From positions 1 through 59,005 of the IMG/VR virus record IMGVR_UViG_3300047321_000135: 59,005 nt of DNA, one strand, 5' to 3'. A program made the position numbers and the translations under genes. The notes below the pieces were generated by a model, which ran no database searches, was not told the origin of the DNA, and saw only the letters and a list, made by a program, of their open reading frames with translations. How positions within the stretch are numbered: position 1 is the first letter of the stretch; each line of letters opens with the position of its first letter. The stretch is from a virus. Of this stretch, positions 1 through 59,005 are shown piece by piece.

Positions 1-274
1 TGATCTCCACCGACTTGGAGTCGGTGAGGATCTGGAGGTTGTCCTCCTTGTCGGTGTCCCACTCCTCCACGGCGCCGCCCATGAGCTGCGCGATGACGTC
101 GGCCACGGCGGGGTCACCGGTCGTGACACGCCATTCGTTCAGGCTCTCCGGCTGCTTACCGACGAGGCGGCCGGACCGGAAGCGGCCGACAACATCGTCG
201 GCGAAGTTCTGCTTACGCGGCTTGGGCTTGGCGTCGGGGTCGGTCTCGAAGATGCTGCGAAGGTTGTTTGCCAT
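1..274 (-). CDS. gp3-like recombination directionality factor, N-terminal part (gene continues at 59005)
   Basis: Starts at ATG 274-272 and is still open at base 1. The N-terminal part reads NFADDVVGRFRSG, then EWRVTTGDPAVADVIAQLMGG, EEWDT and LQILTDSKSVEI. From memory this resembles the phiC31 gp3-type RDF family, small proteins that bind a large serine integrase and switch it from integration to excision. Joining base 1 to base 59005 keeps the frame, with an AAC codon across the cut, and gives a 146-aa protein ending at 58839. Family members I recall are nearer 240 aa, so either this one is compact or sequence is missing at the cut. A conserved promoter element lies about 60 bp upstream. 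The family call is from motif memory only. Confidence 0.6.
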   Translation of the reverse strand, partial: MANNLRSIFETDPDAKPKPRKQNFADDVVGRFRSGRLVGKQPESLNEWRVTTGDPAVADVIAQLMGGAVEEWDTDKEDNLQILTDSKSVEI

Positions 275-332: not shown

Positions 333-372
333 CTTAGTTATGTGGGGGTAGGCCGCAGATGTTTCACGCGAC
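333..372 (-). promoter_or_regulatory. Conserved phage promoter element P1
   Basis: On the minus strand CGTGAAACAT, 11 bases, then CCCCACATAACT. The same element recurs at 5021-5060, 8779-8812 and 48050-48089. It lies between the 384-1037 gene and the RDF-like start at 274, oriented towards the RDF-like gene. Confidence 0.75.
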
Positions 373-3472: not shown

Positions 3473-3475
3473 TGG

Positions 3476-3495
3476 TACGTGAGTCGACTTACGGA
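3476..3495. promoter_or_regulatory. Type A palindromic operator A2
   Basis: TACGTGAGTCGACTTACGGA, immediately after the stop of the 26-aa gene and before the downstream hairpin. Confidence 0.8.
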
Positions 3496-3496
3496 G

Positions 3497-3652: not shown

Positions 3653-4183
3653 TCAGGCGCTCTCCCCCTTCAGTCGCGCGATCTCCCGCGCCTGGCTGAC
3701 GATCGTGGCCTTCAGCTCGTCGACGTCGTCGGAATCGCCCTGCTCGTCCACCAGATCCCGCAGCCGCCGAACCTCGTCTCTCCACGCACGCCCCTCCCTC
3801 TGAGCGGCGTCGCGCTCGCGCTCAGCGCGCCGGAGGTTGGCCCGCAGGGGTCCGCTCGTTTCGTCGTTCCGCTCCGCCAGTTCCTTCCAGGCGTCGGATG
3901 CCGACTTAGCGGCGTCGCGCTCCTGTTCCATGCGTCGGGCGTACTGCCCCAGCTCCGTTGCGTGCTCCTCCGCCGTCTCCTCTCGCTTGATGGCGGCGTC
4001 TGCGCGCTCCTTCTCGCTACGGAGGATGTCGCGGAGCTTCTCGCGCTCGTCGTCCAGAACGCAGAGAACCGCGTCAGCCTCCTCCCGGAAGCCCTCACGG
4101 AGCGACGACCACGTGGTGTGCCACGACAGTCCGGCGTTTTCACACAGCGCCTCAGCGACCCGCGTGCGAAGGTCGTTGCTCAT
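3653..4183 (-). CDS. Hypothetical long coiled-coil protein
   Basis: 176 aa from ATG 4183, which overlaps the stop of the exonuclease gene (ATGA). After about residue 45 it is an almost unbroken charged coiled coil (REKLRDILRSEKERADAAIK and similar). Co-transcribed with the PD-(D/E)XK nuclease, so it might be a partner or structural accessory. No family assigned. Confidence 0.75.
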   Translation of the reverse strand: MSNDLRTRVAEALCENAGLSWHTTWSSLREGFREEADAVLCVLDDEREKLRDILRSEKERADAAIKREETAEEHATELGQYARRMEQERDAAKSASDAWKELAERNDETSGPLRANLRRAERERDAAQREGRAWRDEVRRLRDLVDEQGDSDDVDELKATIVSQAREIARLKGESA

Positions 4184-4983
4184 GCCGCCCGCCTCTGAGT
4201 CCCGGTTTCGGTCTCTCCGCCCTTCGCGATGGCCCTCCCGACGACCCCCTTCTTCCCTTCGCGCTCCCAGTCGAAAACCTGGCGAAGCGCAAGGAACGCG
4301 CGGAAGATGTCCTCGTCGCACGCCACGGGAACAAAGGACCAGCCTTCGGGCCTCACGTGGAGGACGGCTCCGCCAGTCATCTCCGGGACGTCGATGGACT
4401 CCCCGGTCTCCGCAAGAATGATTCGGTCTGCGTAGCGGTAGGCGCTCAACTGCAGCGCCACGGAGTCGTACACGGCCTTACTCGTCTTCCAGTCAAGTAC
4501 AACGACCTCACCGTCCACACGGGCAATGGCGTCGAAGCTGCCGGCGTACAGGTGGGAGTCGCTCCACACCGTCTCCTCCAGGTGGAGGAACTCCGGCTGG
4601 ACCTCGTCCAAGAACTCCTTGAAGTACTGGACGTGCGGCTTGACGTCCGCGTGTACCTGACGCAGCGGGACGCTGTCTCCCCGCGCGAGGCGCTCGAAGT
4701 AGTCGTGAGCCGTCGACCCCAGATCGCTCGCAGCCTTCGTCTTCCGACGGTGCGCGCTCTTCAGGTAGTCGATGGCGCCCTGCGGGTCACGCTCGCACAG
4801 CTTGGAGACGATGTCCCAGTTGTTGACGGCCGCCTCCGCCGACTCCTTCGCCGCCCAGAAGGTGAGGAAATCTTTCGGCAGCATGCCCACGACGCTCGTC
4901 ACGCCCGGCACCTTGATGTGTGCGTCATTCGGGTCGATGTAGAAGCGGCTACCGCCGCGCTTGATCGTTCCTACTCCAGCCAC
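4180..4983 (-). CDS. RecB/Cas4-like PD-(D/E)XK exonuclease
   Basis: 267 aa. The motif GSFDAIARVDGEVVVLDWKT followed by SK and QLSAY (about residues 165-200) is the D...DxK...QxxxY core of RecB/Cas4-family nucleases, which degrade or resect DNA ends in recombination and replication. The start is GTG 4983 because GGAGG sits 5 bases upstream; a longer reading would translate the conserved promoter element itself. It is the first gene after promoter P2 and is followed by an overlapping coiled-coil gene. No iron-sulphur Cys set like that of Cas4 is visible. Confidence 0.85.
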   Translation of the reverse strand: MAGVGTIKRGGSRFYIDPNDAHIKVPGVTSVVGMLPKDFLTFWAAKESAEAAVNNWDIVSKLCERDPQGAIDYLKSAHRRKTKAASDLGSTAHDYFERLARGDSVPLRQVHADVKPHVQYFKEFLDEVQPEFLHLEETVWSDSHLYAGSFDAIARVDGEVVVLDWKTSKAVYDSVALQLSAYRYADRIILAETGESIDVPEMTGGAVLHVRPEGWSFVPVACDEDIFRAFLALRQVFDWEREGKKGVVGRAIAKGGETETGTQRRAA

Positions 4984-5236: not shown

Positions 5237-5971
5237 TCAGCCCCGTGAGCTGGTCTTTTGTGTCAGCTTGCGGAGCGAGGCTAGCTTCCGCTCGATGGCT
5301 GCCAGCTCCACGTCAAGGGCGGCTCGTTGCCCGTCGGTCATGTGCCGCTTGATGACGTTGCGGTCCAGTTGTCCCAGGATGTCCTTCGCCACCACAGCCA
5401 AGCGCAGATGGTCGGCCGTAGCCCGGACTGCCTTGCCGGCTTCCTCCCCTGTCGGCTCAGCCTTGCTCCGGCTTGGCTTCGGGGTGGACTCCTTGACGGC
5501 CGTCGACACTCTTGCAGCCTTGATGATCGACGAGTTCACCTTACGGCTGTCCTGTAGCCGCTCCAATGGGGACGTCGGCTGTAGGTCGTTCGCTTCCAGC
5601 TCACGTGGCGTCAGGTGGCGTCGCAGCAAGTTGCCAATGTGCCACCGGACGGACGCCTGTAGTGCGCTAGTGCTGTCGGCTGGGATGCCGGCACTTCGGT
5701 ACATGTCCGCCACCACCTGCCGGTACTCGTGGCTGGAGCCGCGCATGTCTTGGTGCTTGACGCGTAGCGCGACGACAACGACCGCGATGTTCCTGACGAG
5801 CGTGGTGGCAGCACCTTGAATGCGATGGTGCTCGCGGGCGTATGCCGCGCCACGGGCGACGAGTGCCGCCTCCCCCTCGTGCGCAAGGTCGTCCAGCTCC
5901 AGCGCGGGGAGATCGTCCACGCTGACGGGGACTGGCTCCCCTGTGCTCTTCGTGGCGATTTCTCGGCTCAT
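5237..5971 (-). CDS. Hypothetical protein, possible DNA-binding regulator
   Basis: 244 aa from the second ATG (5971), 5 bases after GAGAGG. The middle section is helical (HEYRQVVADMYRSAGIPADS, then ASVRWHIGNLLRRHLTPREL) and the last 100 residues are rich in K, R and A. The arrangement looks like nucleic-acid binding to me but no named domain is certain. A GTACCGC ... GCGGTAC pair lies in its upstream region and the nested inverted repeat lies just past its stop, both possible targets. Function unknown. Confidence 0.78.
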   Translation of the reverse strand: MSREIATKSTGEPVPVSVDDLPALELDDLAHEGEAALVARGAAYAREHHRIQGAATTLVRNIAVVVVALRVKHQDMRGSSHEYRQVVADMYRSAGIPADSTSALQASVRWHIGNLLRRHLTPRELEANDLQPTSPLERLQDSRKVNSSIIKAARVSTAVKESTPKPSRSKAEPTGEEAGKAVRATADHLRLAVVAKDILGQLDRNVIKRHMTDGQRAALDVELAAIERKLASLRKLTQKTSSRG

Positions 5972-6006
5972 CATGACCTCTCAGCGTCGGCGTAGGCGCG
6001 CATAGA

Positions 6007-6740: not shown

Positions 6741-6752
6741 TGCGTGTAGCCG

Positions 6753-6772
6753 TCCGTAAGTCGACTCGCGGA
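6753..6772. promoter_or_regulatory. Type A palindromic operator A3
   Basis: TCCGTAAGTCGACTCGCGGA, 16 bp upstream of the type B promoter of the SprT-like gene. Confidence 0.78.
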
Positions 6773-6794
6773 CGTTGTGCAGACCTCTGAAACG

Positions 6795-7909: not shown

Positions 7910-8149
7910 TCACGTGACGTCAGGGTCTTGGCGCCACGGGTAGTCCTCGTAACGCAGGTACCGGCATGCCGCCCGGAGTGCGCTGTCCCAGCTGTCGAAG
8001 TGGCCCCGTGGCCACCCGCCAATCTCGATGTACCAGAACGGAGGCACGTCCTCGTCAGGCTCTCCAGGCTCACCAAGGATCCGCCAGCCAACAGCCTTCC
8101 GGACCTTCGGCTTTTGGGGCCAGCAGCAACCGCAGTCGGCCCACTCCAT
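7910..8149 (-). CDS. Hypothetical small protein with Cys-rich N-terminus
   Basis: 79 aa (MEWADCGCCWPQKPKVRK). Three Cys in the first nine residues, then an aromatic-rich region (PPFWYIEIGGWPRGHFDSW). The start overlaps the stop of the kinase gene. No family recognised. Confidence 0.7.
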   Translation of the reverse strand: MEWADCGCCWPQKPKVRKAVGWRILGEPGEPDEDVPPFWYIEIGGWPRGHFDSWDSALRAACRYLRYEDYPWRQDPDVT

Positions 8150-8748
8150 CAGCCGAGAGACCGTGCGTAGTGCCGGCGGGACTCGGATCGTTCGATGCGG
8201 TCGTAGATCACCGACAGGGACTCGTGCAGGTCTCCGACTCCCCCGTCGTTCTCGATCCAGTACTCCGCGTCGGCCGCAGTCAGGGCGCCTTCCGACGCGT
8301 GGTCCAACTGCGGCACTCCGGGGCGGTCGATGTAGACGAGGTGGAAGCCAGCGCGCCGGAGGCGGTCCGCCTCGTTGGGGAAGCGGACGTCAGTGATGAC
8401 CGCCGGGACGCCGGATTCGTTCGCCTCCGTGACCTTCGCCAGGGCTGCGCGGAGCCAGAACTCCGGGTCGATGGCTCGGATAGCCATGCCGAGTTCCTGG
8501 AGGGTGCGACGGACTTCGTGAGACTCCTTGGCCTGCTCCCATCCATAGTCCCGGACAATGTCCGACAGTCGGTAGTAGTCAGGGCCCATGTCGTCGCCAT
8601 GGTCAGCGATGATCGGGTTCAGCGTCAGCGCCGCATCCTTCAGCGCGTCCGCGAACGCCACCCGCCGGTACCCGCGGTTGTCGACGAGCCACTTGCCAGT
8701 CGTGTCCTTGCCGACCCGCGCGCGCCCGATAATGCCGATGTTTCCCAT
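8149..8748 (-). CDS. Deoxynucleoside monophosphate kinase
   Basis: 199 aa. GRARVGKDTTGKW at residues 8-20 is a P-loop, and VITDVRFPNEADRLR around residue 115 is the substrate-side motif typical of phage dNMP kinases, which raise dNTP precursors for replication. It is the first gene after promoter P3 and is coupled to the 79-aa gene downstream. Length fits the family. Confidence 0.85.
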   Translation of the reverse strand: MGNIGIIGRARVGKDTTGKWLVDNRGYRRVAFADALKDAALTLNPIIADHGDDMGPDYYRLSDIVRDYGWEQAKESHEVRRTLQELGMAIRAIDPEFWLRAALAKVTEANESGVPAVITDVRFPNEADRLRRAGFHLVYIDRPGVPQLDHASEGALTAADAEYWIENDGGVGDLHESLSVIYDRIERSESRRHYARSLG

Positions 8749-24125: not shown

Positions 24126-24348
24126 TTCCGCCCGCCTTCCGTCGCGCGGGAGCGCGCTTGGCGACAGCCTTCTTCGCGACCGGCTTCGGAGCGGGCTCCG
24201 TAAGTCGCTTCACGGTGGGCGGCTCCAGCCACGCCTTCGGGTTGGTGATGAGTGCCTGTGCCCACTCCGGGACCTCGTCCGCGGGGCCGAACACGTGGCT
24301 CACGCCCGCGGAGTCCGTCACGTGGACGTTCGTTGCCAGGGTTGCCAT
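24106..24348 (-). CDS. Small head-associated protein with Lys/Ala-rich tail
   Basis: 80 aa. HVTDSAGVSHVFGPADEVPEW followed by PAPKPVAKKAVAKRAPARRK. Genes of this kind between capsid and adaptor are common in actinophages (often left as hypothetical). The basic tail could contact DNA. It overlaps the next gene by 20 bases. Confidence 0.7.
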   Translation of the reverse strand: MATLATNVHVTDSAGVSHVFGPADEVPEWAQALITNPKAWLEPPTVKRLTEPAPKPVAKKAVAKRAPARRKAGGSAVSDG

Positions 24349-34332: not shown

Positions 34333-34390
34333 TGCTGCTCCATGGTCGGGAGCGGCACGAGCGGTGGCCGCTCAGTAGGTGGTGTGTGGT

Positions 34391-34463
34391 CGGGATAGCA
34401 GGATTCGAACCTGCGGCCTTCCGCTCCCAAAGCGGACGCGCTACCAAGCTGCGCCATATCCCG
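34391..34463 (-). tRNA. tRNA-Pro (anticodon TGG)
   Basis: Acceptor CGGGATA/TATCCCG, D arm GCGC…GCGC, anticodon stem TCCGC/GCGGA with loop TTTGGGA, T arm GCAGG-TTCGAAT-CCTGC. All stems pair perfectly. No encoded CCA. Confidence 0.95.
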
Positions 34464-34468
34464 TTTGA

Positions 34469-34551
34469 GCTTCGTGGCAGGGTTCGAACCTGCGATTACA
34501 CCGCCGGATGATGTTCCCCGGCGCGCGTGTACTGCCTCACACCGCACGAAG
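34469..34551 (-). tRNA. tRNA-like element with abnormal anticodon arm
   Basis: Acceptor CTTCGTG/CACGAAG (7 of 7 pairs), D arm GTGT…ACAC with GG in the loop, and T arm GCAGG-TTCGAAC-CCTGC are all intact. The anticodon hairpin is CGCCGG / CCGGCG with a 10-base loop GGAACATCAT that offers no normal U33-anticodon-purine arrangement. It is either a degenerating tRNA or a tRNA mimic. Confidence 0.6.
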
Positions 34552-34555
34552 CTTG

Positions 34556-34635
34556 TGCGTCGCCGTGGGATCGAACCACGCTAGCCGTTCCCAGCGCAGG
34601 CTTTACAGGCCCGCTTGCCTCCCAGGGCTCAACGC
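34556..34635 (-). tRNA. tRNA-Tyr (anticodon GTA)
   Basis: Anticodon stem CGGGC/GCCTG with loop CTGTAAA; long variable arm GCTG-GGAA-CGGC; T arm CGTGG-TTCGATC-CCACG; acceptor GCGTTGA/GCGACGC with one mismatch and one wobble. The D arm is short. Class II shape fits tRNA-Tyr. Confidence 0.8.
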
Positions 34636-34639
34636 TTGG

Positions 34640-34685
34640 GGCTCCGGCCACGCCAGGATTGGGACCTGAGAGGGATGCCAGAGCC
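34640..34685 (-). ncRNA. Minihelix-like hairpin between tRNA genes
   Basis: GGCTCTGG/CCGGAGCC 8-bp stem (one GU) followed by CCA, containing CAGG-TCCCAAT-CCTG that imitates a T arm. 46 bases, too short for a tRNA. Could be processing debris or a tRNA remnant. Confidence 0.3.
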
Positions 34686-34689
34686 TTGC

Positions 34690-34771
34690 GGAAGGTGGAG
34701 GAGTTGAACCCCCAACGGGTTGCCCCGTGACGCTTTTCGAGAGCGCGTGGCACGCCAATGCCCGACCTTCC
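34690..34771 (-). tRNA. tRNA-Ser (anticodon CGA)
   Basis: Acceptor GGAAGGT/ACCTTCC, D stem GGCA/TGCC, anticodon stem GCGCT/AGCGT with loop CTCGAAA, long variable arm ACGGG-GCAA-CCCGT, T arm GGGGG-TTCAACT-CCTCC. Confidence 0.9.
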
Positions 34772-34932
34772 TTGACGTCGGCCGGCTATGCCGGATGCCT
34801 CCGGGAAGACGACCGTCCGCCGTCCTCGTCACCCGCTAGGCCACGAGGTACCGGGGAGCTACCCCGGTGACGACCCACCCGGCTTACCGGGGCTACGGTG
34901 AGCGTGCTCCGCGGCGGCACAGGGTCGTCAGT

Positions 34933-35086
34933 CGGCAGCGAAGGAATCGAACCTCCGTCTCCGGACCATTGCCCGGTGATCTCACCGCTAGCAGTCAATC
35001 CCGCAGGCGAGTGCCATGGTCAACCCTGCGGCGAGATGCGTAGCAGTACGTTCCCGTTGCCGGGCCCGCCATTGATCTAGCTGCCG
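34933..35086 (-). tRNA. tRNA-like element with split acceptor halves
   Basis: A full T arm (GGAGG-TTCGATT-CCTTC) and 3' acceptor half GCTGCCG lie at 34933-34956. The perfect 5' partner CGGCAGC, followed by TA and GATCAATGGC like a D arm, lies at 35070-35086. The whole is 154 bases, twice tRNA size. CCGGG-CAATGG-TCCGG could be a 6-base-loop anticodon arm. Either an insertion inside the D loop or two decayed genes. Confidence 0.4.
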
Positions 35087-35089
35087 AAG

Positions 35090-35163
35090 TACCGCACGAG
35101 GGATTCGAACCCCCAACCTCCTGATCCTGAATCAGGCGCCTCTACCAGTTGGGCTACTGCGGC
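35090..35163 (-). tRNA. tRNA with anticodon CAG (Leu) but class I shape
   Basis: Acceptor GCCGCAG/GTGCGGT (one wobble, one mismatch), D arm with GG, anticodon stem CCTGA/TCAGG with loop TTCAGGA, T arm GGGGG-TTCGAAT-CCCTC, discriminator A. The variable region is only AGGTT, whereas bacterial tRNA-Leu has a long variable arm. Confidence 0.82.
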
Positions 35164-36105: not shown

Positions 36106-37746
36106 TTAGAGGCTCTCTTGGTGGACCACATCGTCCAATGCGTCCTGCTCCGGATCGACGTGCGTCCCGATGTCGAACGTCAACCGCTCTTCCGCGGGCG
36201 CTCTCCAGCGCTCCGGAGGATGCACAGTGATCCTCGCCCCCGCCTCGTGGAGCATCTGACGTCGCGCCAGGGGGTCGCGCGTGGCATTCCAGTCGTCGGC
36301 CCATGTGGTGTCCAGTTCGACGATCTGTTCCCGAGCCGGCTTCACCGGTTCCGCCTGCAGCTGCTCCAGCCGGTCGGAGCGTGCCTGCAGCTGCGTCATG
36401 ACGCCGTCTGCTGCCGGTCCACGGAGCTGCGCCAGGCGCGCGGACAGTTCCGCCACGTCGGCCGTCAGGTCGGCGATCTCAGCGCGGTTGTCGACGCCCG
36501 CGACGCGGATGACCTGCGTGCGACGGAAAGGCCCCATGTGCGCCAGGAACTGCGTCTCCGCGTACTCCAGGACCGGGCCGGCGTAGATGCTGAGAGCGGG
36601 TACGCCCTTCGCGTGCTCCTTACCGATGCACCGGAAGATTTCCTTCTTCACCCCCGTCGGCTTGGCCTTCGCTCCCCGTCCGCCCTTCCGCTCCGTGTAC
36701 CAGCTGATGTACATGTTCTGCCCGCAGACGCCGCACACGAGGACGCCCAGGAGCGGGTGGCCGTCATTGCGACGAGGCGCGCGAGGATCCAGCGTTAGCC
36801 GCTTCAGGGCCTCCTGCAATTGGTGCCAGGTGTCGTCGTCGATCAGCGGTTCGCCCTGCAGAACGGGCGCGCCTTCGTCGTTGCGGACCACGGTGCCGTC
36901 CTTCTTGACAAGGTGACCGCGCATGACGGGAGAAAGAAGCATGTCGCGGACAACGGTCAGCTGCCATGTGCTTTCCGGGTCAGCGTCCCGCGGAGGCGTG
37001 GCGAGTGCCGCCCGATGGTTCTTCGGCGTAATCGCCTCCATTGCCTCCAGCCAACGCATGATGTCGCTGTAGTTCTTGCCGGCAATAGCACGGGCCACCA
37101 TGCCGCGTCGGATATCCGCGGTCGACTTGGCCGGCTCGTCTTTGTCGACGTGTTCGAAAAGCCACCAACCCTCGTTGCCGTCAGGGAACATCAGCCGTCC
37201 GGGTGCGTAGCCGTATGGCACGACTCCCCCGGGCCACCGTCCCATTGACTGGAGATGTGCGGCAGCTCCTTGGTTCCGCTCCATGATGGTCTGGCCTTCG
37301 AGCTGAGCGGCGAAGGCGAGAATCAACATGATGAGTTCGGACATGGGAGAACTGAAGTCCAGCTCCAGTTTGTCGCCCCCGGGCCCGGACGCGAACACGA
37401 GGCGCTTTCCGTGCTTCTTCGCGTAGCGCCCCAGATCCGCCATGTCGGCCATGGAGCGAACCGCGCGGTCCATGCGCTGCCAGATCATGACGTCCCACTC
37501 GTCGGGACGGTCCAGCCAGTAGGAGAGTTCCTCGCGCTCCCACGGAGTCGTCTTCAGTGCCGAGACGTCAAGGTCTCGCGCCCATCCGATGAACTCCCCA
37601 CCCATGCGGTTGCCCGTGGTGGTTACGGTGGCTTCCTGGACCTCTGGTGACGTCGAAGCGTCGGTGTAGCGACTGATCCGTAGCGCCCCAACGATGCGGA
37701 GTCGGGCGTCTGTTGCCGGTGCGCGCCGTGGCGCGGATGGAGTCAT
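36106..37746 (-). CDS. int: Large serine recombinase (integrase)
   Basis: 546 aa. The N-terminal resolvase domain has ALRISRYTDAS with the candidate nucleophile Ser25, MIWQRMDRAVRS with its Arg, and FSSPMSELIMLILAFAAQLE leading to the long helix. The recombinase domain follows (HLQSMGRWPGGVVPYGYAPG). A zinc ribbon, CGVCGQNMY … FRCIGKE, lies around residues 340-385. A coiled coil (IADLTADVAELSARLAQLRG) around 430-470 is where RDFs act. It inserts phage attP into host attB. The leaderless ATG has TATCAT 7 bases upstream. The gp3-like gene at the window ends is the likely RDF partner. Confidence 0.95.
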   Translation of the reverse strand: MTPSAPRRAPATDARLRIVGALRISRYTDASTSPEVQEATVTTTGNRMGGEFIGWARDLDVSALKTTPWEREELSYWLDRPDEWDVMIWQRMDRAVRSMADMADLGRYAKKHGKRLVFASGPGGDKLELDFSSPMSELIMLILAFAAQLEGQTIMERNQGAAAHLQSMGRWPGGVVPYGYAPGRLMFPDGNEGWWLFEHVDKDEPAKSTADIRRGMVARAIAGKNYSDIMRWLEAMEAITPKNHRAALATPPRDADPESTWQLTVVRDMLLSPVMRGHLVKKDGTVVRNDEGAPVLQGEPLIDDDTWHQLQEALKRLTLDPRAPRRNDGHPLLGVLVCGVCGQNMYISWYTERKGGRGAKAKPTGVKKEIFRCIGKEHAKGVPALSIYAGPVLEYAETQFLAHMGPFRRTQVIRVAGVDNRAEIADLTADVAELSARLAQLRGPAADGVMTQLQARSDRLEQLQAEPVKPAREQIVELDTTWADDWNATRDPLARRQMLHEAGARITVHPPERWRAPAEERLTFDIGTHVDPEQDALDDVVHQESL

Positions 37747-42216: not shown

Positions 42217-42402
42217 TGAACTTCCGTAAGTCGACTCACGGAGCATCGCCACGAGCGCTCCCCCAGGCAGCTCCACCACCCATCCGCCGCGGACTCTCGT
42301 CCGCCCGTAGCCGGCGCTCACAGCCTGGCGGAGGAAGTGGCGGTGCGCCACGTCGTCGACGATGCCCGTCGCGCCGTTCTCCAGCGTCAGGCGGTAGCGC
42401 AT
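42178..42402 (-). CDS. Hypothetical protein whose 3' end reads through both operators
   Basis: 74 aa from ATG 42402 (AAGGAGCGGGG upstream). MRYRLTLENGATGIVDDVAH, then beta strands. The last 21 residues (LRESTYGSS, VGLVSADSS) are encoded by operator A4, operator B2 and the spacer, and the stop TAG lies in the CATAGT box. The upstream 50 residues look like a real protein; the tail is either tolerated or functional. Confidence 0.6.
   Translation of the reverse strand: MRYRLTLENGATGIVDDVAHRHFLRQAVSAGYGRTRVRGGWVVELPGGALVAMLRESTYGSSSVGLVSADSSVS
42223..42242. promoter_or_regulatory. Type A palindromic operator A4
   Basis: TCCGTAAGTCGACTCACGGA, a perfect 20-bp palindrome apart from the central asymmetry, 15 bp upstream of type B site B2. 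Confidence 0.82.
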
Positions 42403-43060: not shown

Positions 43061-43072
43061 CTTCGGCGAACT

Positions 43073-43092
43073 TCCGTAAGTCGACTCACGCA
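43073..43092. promoter_or_regulatory. Type A palindromic operator A5
   Basis: TCCGTAAGTCGACTCACGCA, directly after the stop of the sortase-like gene (43094). Confidence 0.78.
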
Positions 43093-43093
43093 C

Positions 43094-45425: not shown

Positions 45426-45447
45426 TTCCGTGAGTCGACTCACGGAA
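45426..45447. promoter_or_regulatory. Type A palindromic operator A6 (perfect)
   Basis: TCCGTGAGTCGACTCACGGA plus one further pair on each side, a perfect 22-bp palindrome. Confidence 0.85.
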
Positions 45448-46082: not shown

Positions 46083-46109
46083 GCTCTCTCCTCAGTGAGT
46101 GATACGTGG

Positions 46110-46129
46110 TCCGTGAGTCGACTTGCGGA
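46110..46129. promoter_or_regulatory. Type A palindromic operator A7
   Basis: TCCGTGAGTCGACTTGCGGA, 2 bp after the stop of the 46132-46458 gene. Confidence 0.8.
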
Positions 46130-46131
46130 GG

Positions 46132-47024: not shown

Positions 47025-47054
47025 GCTCTCTCCTCTGTCGTCATGCTCAGTAGC

Positions 47055-47074
47055 TCCGTAAGTCGACTCACGGA
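47055..47074. promoter_or_regulatory. Type A palindromic operator A8
   Basis: TCCGTAAGTCGACTCACGGA, 2 bp past the stop of the 46-aa gene. Confidence 0.82.
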
Positions 47075-47076
47075 GG

Positions 47077-47243: not shown

Positions 47244-48020
47244 TTACGCGGCGATGTTGTGGCGGCCGGCCACGGCGCGGGCGTTGTCGATTCCGCGGGT
47301 GCGGAGGACGCGAAGGGGAGCCTTCTTGACCTGGAGGTCCGCGCTTGCCTCGTCCTCCGTCAGACGCTGCATGCCGATGCCGTAGAAGGCGCGGAGTGCG
47401 AATGCCTGGCGCTGCGGAATCTCCGTCAGCAGCCAGCGGGCCAGGTCGCGGCGCGCGGTGGTGTCGGTGAAATCCGACGAGGCGTCGGGGATGAGATCAG
47501 AGAGCAGGATGCTTCCGTCCTCCCCCACGGCGCCCCGGACGACATCCTGTGGGGCGTCCAGACACTGCGTCTCCGCAATTGCTTCACGAATTGCCACGAA
47601 CGCTTCACGCGACATCCGTCGACGGGGGTCAGTGTCGCTGGATACGATCATCCAAGCGCCTTCGACGTCGCCTTCCGTGTCCCAGAGTGCCCGCCGCACA
47701 CGCAGTGCCGCGGACGCATCCACGGAGAGCTGCGTCGTGGAGCCGAGCCACTCCTCCGCAACGGCGCGGCGGATGGCGTTGTATGCGTAGGTGGCAAGCG
47801 TGGCGGCGCTGGCCTCGGTGTCGTAGGAGCGGGTGTTCTGGAGGAGTACCGCGCGTGCCTCCTGGATCAGGTCGTCGTTCTGCTCCCGCGTTGCACCCGG
47901 CGCCGTGGTCCGGATGATCCGCCACATCATCGGCTCGTATGCGCTGATGATCTCCCACATGGCGTCCTGGTCGCCGGCCTGCGCTGCCTGGATCTGCTCG
48001 GTGGTGACGGTGGTCGACAT
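47244..48020 (-). CDS. Phage sigma-70-like factor
   Basis: 258 aa. Residues about 10-90 match sigma region 2: AAQAGDQDAMWEIISAYEPM, NDDLIQEARAVLLQNTRSYD, TYAYNAIRRAVAEEW (the DDLIQEA core and the melting helix). Region 4 lies at about 205-250: FALRAFYGIGMQRLTEDEAS, with RTRGIDNAR as the recognition helix. Region 1 and most of region 3 are short or missing. It is expressed from its own copy of the conserved promoter (P4), which fits autoactivation. It probably directs host RNA polymerase to P1-P4. Confidence 0.85.
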   Translation of the reverse strand: MSTTVTTEQIQAAQAGDQDAMWEIISAYEPMMWRIIRTTAPGATREQNDDLIQEARAVLLQNTRSYDTEASAATLATYAYNAIRRAVAEEWLGSTTQLSVDASAALRVRRALWDTEGDVEGAWMIVSSDTDPRRRMSREAFVAIREAIAETQCLDAPQDVVRGAVGEDGSILLSDLIPDASSDFTDTTARRDLARWLLTEIPQRQAFALRAFYGIGMQRLTEDEASADLQVKKAPLRVLRTRGIDNARAVAGRHNIAA

Positions 48021-48049
48021 GTGGGCTCCTCGTGAGTTCGTCTTGTGTC

Positions 48050-48089
48050 TCAGTTATGTGGGGGTAGAGCGAAGATGTTTCACGTGACT
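48050..48089 (-). promoter_or_regulatory. Conserved phage promoter element P4 (sigma gene)
   Basis: Minus strand CGTGAAACAT, 11 bases, CCCCACATAACT, about 30 bp before the sigma ATG. Confidence 0.78.
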
Positions 48090-48168
48090 TTTGTGACCTG
48101 GACCACACAGCTAGGCGGTCGTCAGGGCGCGACAAGCCGCCGCGTGTCCGGGTAGTGGTGAGTTGAAG

Positions 48169-48196: not shown

Positions 48197-48202
48197 CGGT
48201 GC

Positions 48203-48222
48203 TCCGTGAGTCGCCTTACGGA
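48203..48222. promoter_or_regulatory. Type A palindromic operator A9
   Basis: TCCGTGAGTCGCCTTACGGA, one centre mismatch, just after the stop of the 48230-48451 gene. Confidence 0.75.
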
Positions 48223-48229
48223 GGTCGGA

Positions 48230-58838: not shown

Positions 58839-59005
58839 TCAGGCAGCCTTCGCCAGGTCCGCCGGCTGAGCGACCTCGTAGATACCGAGAACCTTGATGG
58901 CCGGCATGTTGTAGGCCACGTCCCGACCGGCCTTCGTGGTGTACGCCACGTGCTCGATCGTCAGCGACGCGCGGACCGGCTTGCCCGGGGCGGTCACCTT
59001 GCCGT
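58839..59005 (-). CDS. gp3-like recombination directionality factor, C-terminal part
   Basis: Open at base 59005 and stopping at 58839-58841. Reads GKVTAPGKPVRASLTIEHVA, then YTTKAGRDVAYNMPAIKVLG. The strand pattern LTIEHVAYTTKAGRDVxY is what I remember from the C-terminus of gp3-type RDFs, complementing the N-terminal motifs at 1-274. Read across the cut it finishes a 146-aa frame. A terminator follows. Confidence 0.6.
   Translation of the reverse strand, partial: GKVTAPGKPVRASLTIEHVAYTTKAGRDVAYNMPAIKVLGIYEVAQPADLAKAA

Follow-up and report, generated by a model that had tools for sequence, protein, structure and literature searches.

Phage-encoded sigma factors such as gp55 of T4 and gp28 of SPO1 redirect the host core polymerase to a class of phage promoters. 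These two factors belong to lytic phages with timed cascades, whereas the phage described here is temperate and its sigma gene is preceded by the predicted promoter of its own regulon. The closer counterparts are found in the phiC31 group. Mapping work in the 1990s showed the early promoters of phiC31 to be phage-specific and active in lytic growth. In phiC31, BT1 and TG1, repeated phage-specific elements precede the genes for a kinase, an exonuclease, the RDF and gp12, and the same is seen in the window (the whole stretch of DNA analysed, an IMG/VR virus record 59,005 bases long). The gp12 of phiC31 matches the same PHROG sigma families as the sigma factor of the window and is annotated in RefSeq as a sigma factor, but it is longer (396 aa) and the pairwise similarity is weak. 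The phiC31 element differs in sequence and forms one compact block, roughly 20 nt long (GGTTGCCGACTCCCTTA), present in about 10 copies, whereas the window contains four copies of an element with two boxes.

The sigma factor of Samy (OR263580), SAMYPH_68, is 46% identical to that of the window. Samy has its own promoter family, GCGTCACAT-N16-CAYAAC, before the corresponding four genes and shares with the window a homologous repressor and a Crp-type box at the sigma promoter, while the two phages differ in the sequences of the -35 and of the extended -10. The Samy paper does not use the word 'promoter' in its main text. Overall, the four-gene layout of the window is common to Samy, phiC31, BT1, TG1 and others, and a phage-specific repeated element is located at the same four genes in 16 of 17 phiC31-group phages, its type changing with the sigma factor. 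In SASD1 and Dubu the sigma gene lacks an element that other genes share. Since the early promoters of the phiC31 superfamily and a sigma factor in gp12 were already on record, the window represents a variant of a known system, and an earlier note on this DNA went too far in calling it a new control circuit. What appears to be new is the covariation that pairs each promoter family with its own sigma factor. A candidate residue for -35 specificity (V238) and a Crp-consensus box confined to the promoter of the sigma gene are also new.

The sigma factor and its predicted promoters

The window derives from a Streptomyces-type phage, which is taken to be temperate because it contains a serine integrase and a homologue of a Samy-type immunity repressor. 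Its relevant features are the following.

1-274, minus strand: RDF gene, N-terminal part (tblastn with Samy proteins)
58842-58985, minus strand: RDF gene, C-terminal part, at the opposite end of the record
337-368, minus strand: P1, predicted promoter of the RDF operon
about 4183-4983, minus strand: exonuclease gene (PDDEXK), first gene behind P2
5024-5055, minus strand: P2, predicted promoter of the exonuclease operon
5237-5974, minus strand: homologue of the putative immunity repressor of Samy, SAMYPH_32 (47% identity)
8149-8748 (also placed at about 8161-8742), minus strand: deoxynucleoside monophosphate (dNMP) kinase gene, first gene behind P3
8781-8812, minus strand: P3, predicted promoter of the dNMP kinase gene
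36106-37746, minus strand: serine integrase gene
47244-48020, minus strand: sigma factor gene (258 aa)
48053-48084, minus strand: P4, predicted promoter of the sigma gene
48058-48053, minus strand: -10 box of P4 (CATAAC), preceded by the extended -10
48083-48075, minus strand: -35 box of P4, GTGAAACAT
48093-48106, minus strand: Crp-consensus box GTGGTCCAGGTCAC, a perfect match, 9 nt upstream of the P4 -35
48202-48223, minus strand: operator-like inverted repeat CTCCGTAAGGCGACTCACGGAG, upstream of the sigma gene

The RDF gene is found in two parts because the record is cut inside it. A second record, G005, breaks at the identical base (position 1 of the window and of G005) within this gene; most likely the assembly branched here between strains. 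Behind the integrase gene lie three tRNA genes (Pro, Ser, Leu; 34387-35163, minus strand), an arrangement also seen in Samy and in other phiC31-group phages.

The element CGTGAAACAT-N11-CCCCACATAAC occurs four times in the window, always on the minus strand and with 0 mismatches. A fifth match was not found in the window when up to 3 mismatches were allowed; 100 shuffles gave 0 matches, and 0 are expected by chance. The four elements with an 11-bp spacer reported in the earlier note are thus confirmed, as is the position of one of them before the sigma factor's own gene. The difference between the boxes and the housekeeping consensus is likewise supported. Searches by tblastn with Samy proteins place the kinase, exonuclease, RDF and sigma genes directly behind P3, P2, P1 and P4, as the same note had claimed. 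A looser -35/-10 pattern with shifted spacing was rejected as a further candidate, its 14 occurrences being at chance level (14.2 expected).

The 258-aa protein (P0001) matches PHROG families of RNA polymerase sigma factors (E=2e-17). The Pfam model Sigma70_r2 is found in 19 of 20 relatives, the protein of the window itself scoring just under the curated cut-off (E=1.3e-4), and the Pfam models for region 4 gave no match. A profile built from the 20 relatives matches RpoD (E=1.5e-8); the match begins ahead of region 2 and runs through all of region 4. The alignment is continuous across profile positions 10-246 and includes the region 3 finger (SLD-P...L-D). Region 2 covers about residues 1-96, region 3 about 97-186 and region 4 about 187-258. 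The helix-turn-helix of region 4 aligns with that of RpoD, and helices are present at 187-253 in an AlphaFold model (pLDDT 75.6, pTM 0.48), which also contains a flexible linker at about 150-186. A Foldseek search of the PDB with this model retrieved sigma subunits, with low TM scores because of the domain placement.

By its sequence, the protein is a factor of the sigma-70 family with regions 2, 3 and 4, and it is predicted to bind the core polymerase and to initiate transcription. A sigma-70-like protein had been proposed, and this assignment holds. The regions 2 and 4 described at the time are both present, but the description was incomplete, as region 3 is there as well. ECF factors have regions 2 and 4 in common with the sigma factor of the window, which differs by the presence of region 3 and by its best matches, RpoD, RpoS and RpoH. 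An ECF factor scores only E=0.5 against the 20-relative profile. Given the presence of region 3 and the match to RpoD, membership of the ECF factors (group 4) was rejected, and the ECF-like character once suggested is not supported.

Covariation of promoters and sigma factors

A single-protein search of viral contigs with the sigma factor retrieved no relatives. With a two-sequence sigma profile, 14 viral contigs were matched; close relatives of the sigma factor are also carried by seven Streptomyces genomes. The group compared here consists of 15 phages, namely the window, Samy and 13 distinct IMG/VR records. In 15/15 of these, the element type of the sigma gene recurs at the corresponding genes, all on the strand of the sigma gene. 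As a rule there are four copies per phage, with three in G010 (an incomplete record) and five in G004 and G011. These copies depart from the element of the sigma gene at no more than 2 of 21 core positions, and few further matches exist at 4-6 mismatches. The exonuclease gene of G014 is no exception to the pattern, since its element is located about 600 nt upstream. The fifth copies are found at position 4301 in G004 and at 4580 in G011, and others at C13:59860 in G020 and C107:26804 in G022. That of G011 lies after the integrase gene and before an apparent HNH nuclease reading frame.

The architecture in the 15-phage group is always ACAT-N16-(-10). When the spacing was left free (12-20), 16 nt were found between ACAT and CATAAC in all but 3 of 35 matches. 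Within phages the boxes are 0.91-1.0 identical and the spacers 0.33-0.75; between phages the boxes average 0.69. The window and G001 share the -35 type GTGAAACAT. Other promoter types are GTCTGACAT in G008, GGTACTGGAT in G009 and ATTACGACAYAAC in Samy, G011 and G012, while variants of the -10 box are CATATA (G006), CACTAC (G013) and CATACC (G014). Such promoter sets are also present in the prophages of the seven Streptomyces genomes. One of these prophages, in genome L039, is mixed at the -35, with GTGACAT at the kinase and exonuclease genes, GAAACAA at the RDF and sigma genes and one shared -10; it is perhaps a specificity switch in progress. Promoters of this prophage are located at L093:7508, 11021 and 17447, in the host genome of L039.

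A natural swap is provided by G005. Compared with the window, its RDF is 100% identical over the first 90 aa; its exonuclease reaches 97%, its homologue of the repressor 96% and the two small genes adjacent to sigma 94-99%. The sigma factor, in contrast, is only 53% identical, and all four promoters are of a different type. The converse is found in G001, which has the closest sigma factor to that of the window (62%) and the promoter type of the window, with a repressor of only 56% identity. Across 105 phage pairs, promoter similarity tracks sigma identity (Spearman 0.48), and the partial correlation given kinase, exonuclease and RDF is 0.52 (permutation p=0.0015). For the driven genes or the replication genes, the correlation with promoter similarity is only 0.03-0.20. 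The pairwise tests are label permutations in which phylogeny is not modelled. In a screen of 43 proteins for correlation with promoter type, sigma came third, and the terminase and the gene next to sigma ranked above it. As determinants of the promoter type, these two are disfavoured by the G005 swap.

The covariation can be divided further between the parts of the protein, whose region boundaries were fixed once, ahead of the test. Across 19 pairs of sigma factor and P4, variation in the -35 follows region 4 alone (partial r 0.48, p=0.003), that in the extended -10 follows region 3 (0.65, p=0.0002) and that in the -10 follows region 2 (0.37, p=0.005). The spacer follows no region. This domain-wise pairing is the match expected from the physics of contact between a sigma factor and its promoter. 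Promoters and the corresponding parts of the sigma factor thus appear to have evolved jointly in about 20 relatives. Such joint change is strong, though indirect, evidence for a master switch of the early genes.

For the -35 box, the comparison leads to a single position. Only one of the 258 columns, residue 238, separates GAAACA-type from TCACA-type boxes by chemical class: V, V and M accompany the GAAACA type, and K, Q or R the TCACA type (14 phages). In the sigma factor of the window this residue is V238 in the helix of region 4.2, opposite the Q of RERIRQIE of RpoD in the profile alignment. This Q we take to be Q589 of E. coli, a known -35 contact. V238 is a candidate for a single residue specifying the -35.

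The putative operators and the Crp-type box

About 10 inverted repeats around CTCCGTAAGTCGACTCACGGAG are present in the window.

389-410, 3475-3496, 6752-6773, 24196-24217, 42222-42243, 43072-43093, 45426-45447, 46109-46130, 47054-47075 and 48202-48223: inverted repeats

They resemble the conserved inverted repeats of phiC31 and are likely, by this analogy, to be operators of the putative repressor. The repeats are identical in the window and G005, and Samy has its own version (CGCGTAAAACGACTCACGCG).

The Crp consensus of Streptomyces is GTG(N)6GNCAC (PMC10033298). It is present at 13 of the 15 sigma promoters and at none of the 44 other promoters, with 0.013 occurrences expected per 90 nt. 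In 12 of the 13 the box is located 9-10 nt upstream of the -35, and in G013 the distance is 20 nt. A Crp-type box is also found upstream of gp12 in phiC31, TG1, Shawty, Rowa, Shaeky and Shady. Towards the sigma gene of the window, the inverted repeat (48202-48223) is followed by the Crp-type box (48093-48106), P4 (48053-48084) and the start codon (48020). The centre of the box lies about 54 nt before the predicted transcription start, which is no classical activator position. The window yielded no Crp-family gene in a search in which the named control genomes matched included no Streptomyces. Control of the phage switch by the Crp of the host, acting via this candidate box, is possible.

Proposed mechanism and alternatives

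The sequences show directly that the four elements exist, that they are conserved and that they covary with the sigma factor; transcription from P1-P4 and positive feedback in the cell are inferred. It is highly probable that the phage sigma factor and the host core polymerase read P1-P4, activating the early operons and the sigma gene itself. The third rank of sigma in the protein screen and the mixed -35 types of L039 count against this reading. A competing explanation is that the elements are sites of another phage regulator, a repressor or an activator, and that a host sigma factor transcribes the genes. Repeated elements upstream of genes are often operators, and the element type also correlates with the repressor homologue (0.49) and with the gene beside sigma (0.58). 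In G005, however, the elements change with sigma although the repressor homologue and the neighbouring genes are practically unchanged, and the halves of the element each track separate sigma domains. Moreover, a separate family of inverted repeats fits a repressor operator and is the same in both phages. Based on the swap and this separate family, P1-P4 were rejected as repressor operators, and regulation by another phage protein retains only a slim chance.

It is still less probable that a housekeeping or alternative sigma factor of the host reads P1-P4 while the phage sigma acts elsewhere, for example on host genes. CATAAC is broadly -10-like, but a scan of early regions detected no promoter of the housekeeping type, and the element type varies among close relatives in step with the phage sigma factor. 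In the seven host genomes, furthermore, complete elements of the own type cluster in prophage contigs. The near identity of the four copies within a phage could also suggest functionless residues of a recent duplication or recombination. Against this, the spacers have diverged within phages where the boxes have not, and spacing and position are fixed across phages of otherwise different sequence; the probability of this explanation is close to negligible. Reading of P1-P4, the sigma factor's own promoter included, by the phage sigma factor is thus favoured by evidence that may be called close to decisive short of the bench.

In the proposed mechanism, the phage sigma factor would transcribe P1-P4 with the core RNA polymerase of the host. 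With these promoters the early region would fall into four operons, those of the kinase, the exonuclease, the RDF with replication, and sigma, and P4, by driving the sigma gene, would create a self-activating loop. In the lysogen, a repressor of the phiC31/Samy type would hold this loop off, probably by binding to the CTCCGTAAGTCGACTCACGGAG operators; the action of the repressor homologue through these repeats is proposed because of the parallel with phiC31. The first sigma molecules would have to arise by host-driven transcription, possibly with the aid of the Crp-type box at the sigma gene.

The phiC31 integrase tools come from this phage group, and the mechanism would point to the likely activator of its phage-specific early promoters. 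The roughly 20 natural sigma-promoter pairs may serve as a resource with a readable specificity position (residue 238 versus the -35 box), and through the Crp-type box a connection of prophage induction with a metabolic regulator of the host becomes testable. For the phiC31 superfamily as a whole, it is tentatively proposed, at rather less than even chance, that fast-changing orthogonal sigma-promoter pairs avoid cross-activation between prophages, with the sigma gene alone also under Crp (cAMP). If true, the paired rewiring would keep co-resident prophages apart, and Crp would tie induction to the nutrient state of the host.
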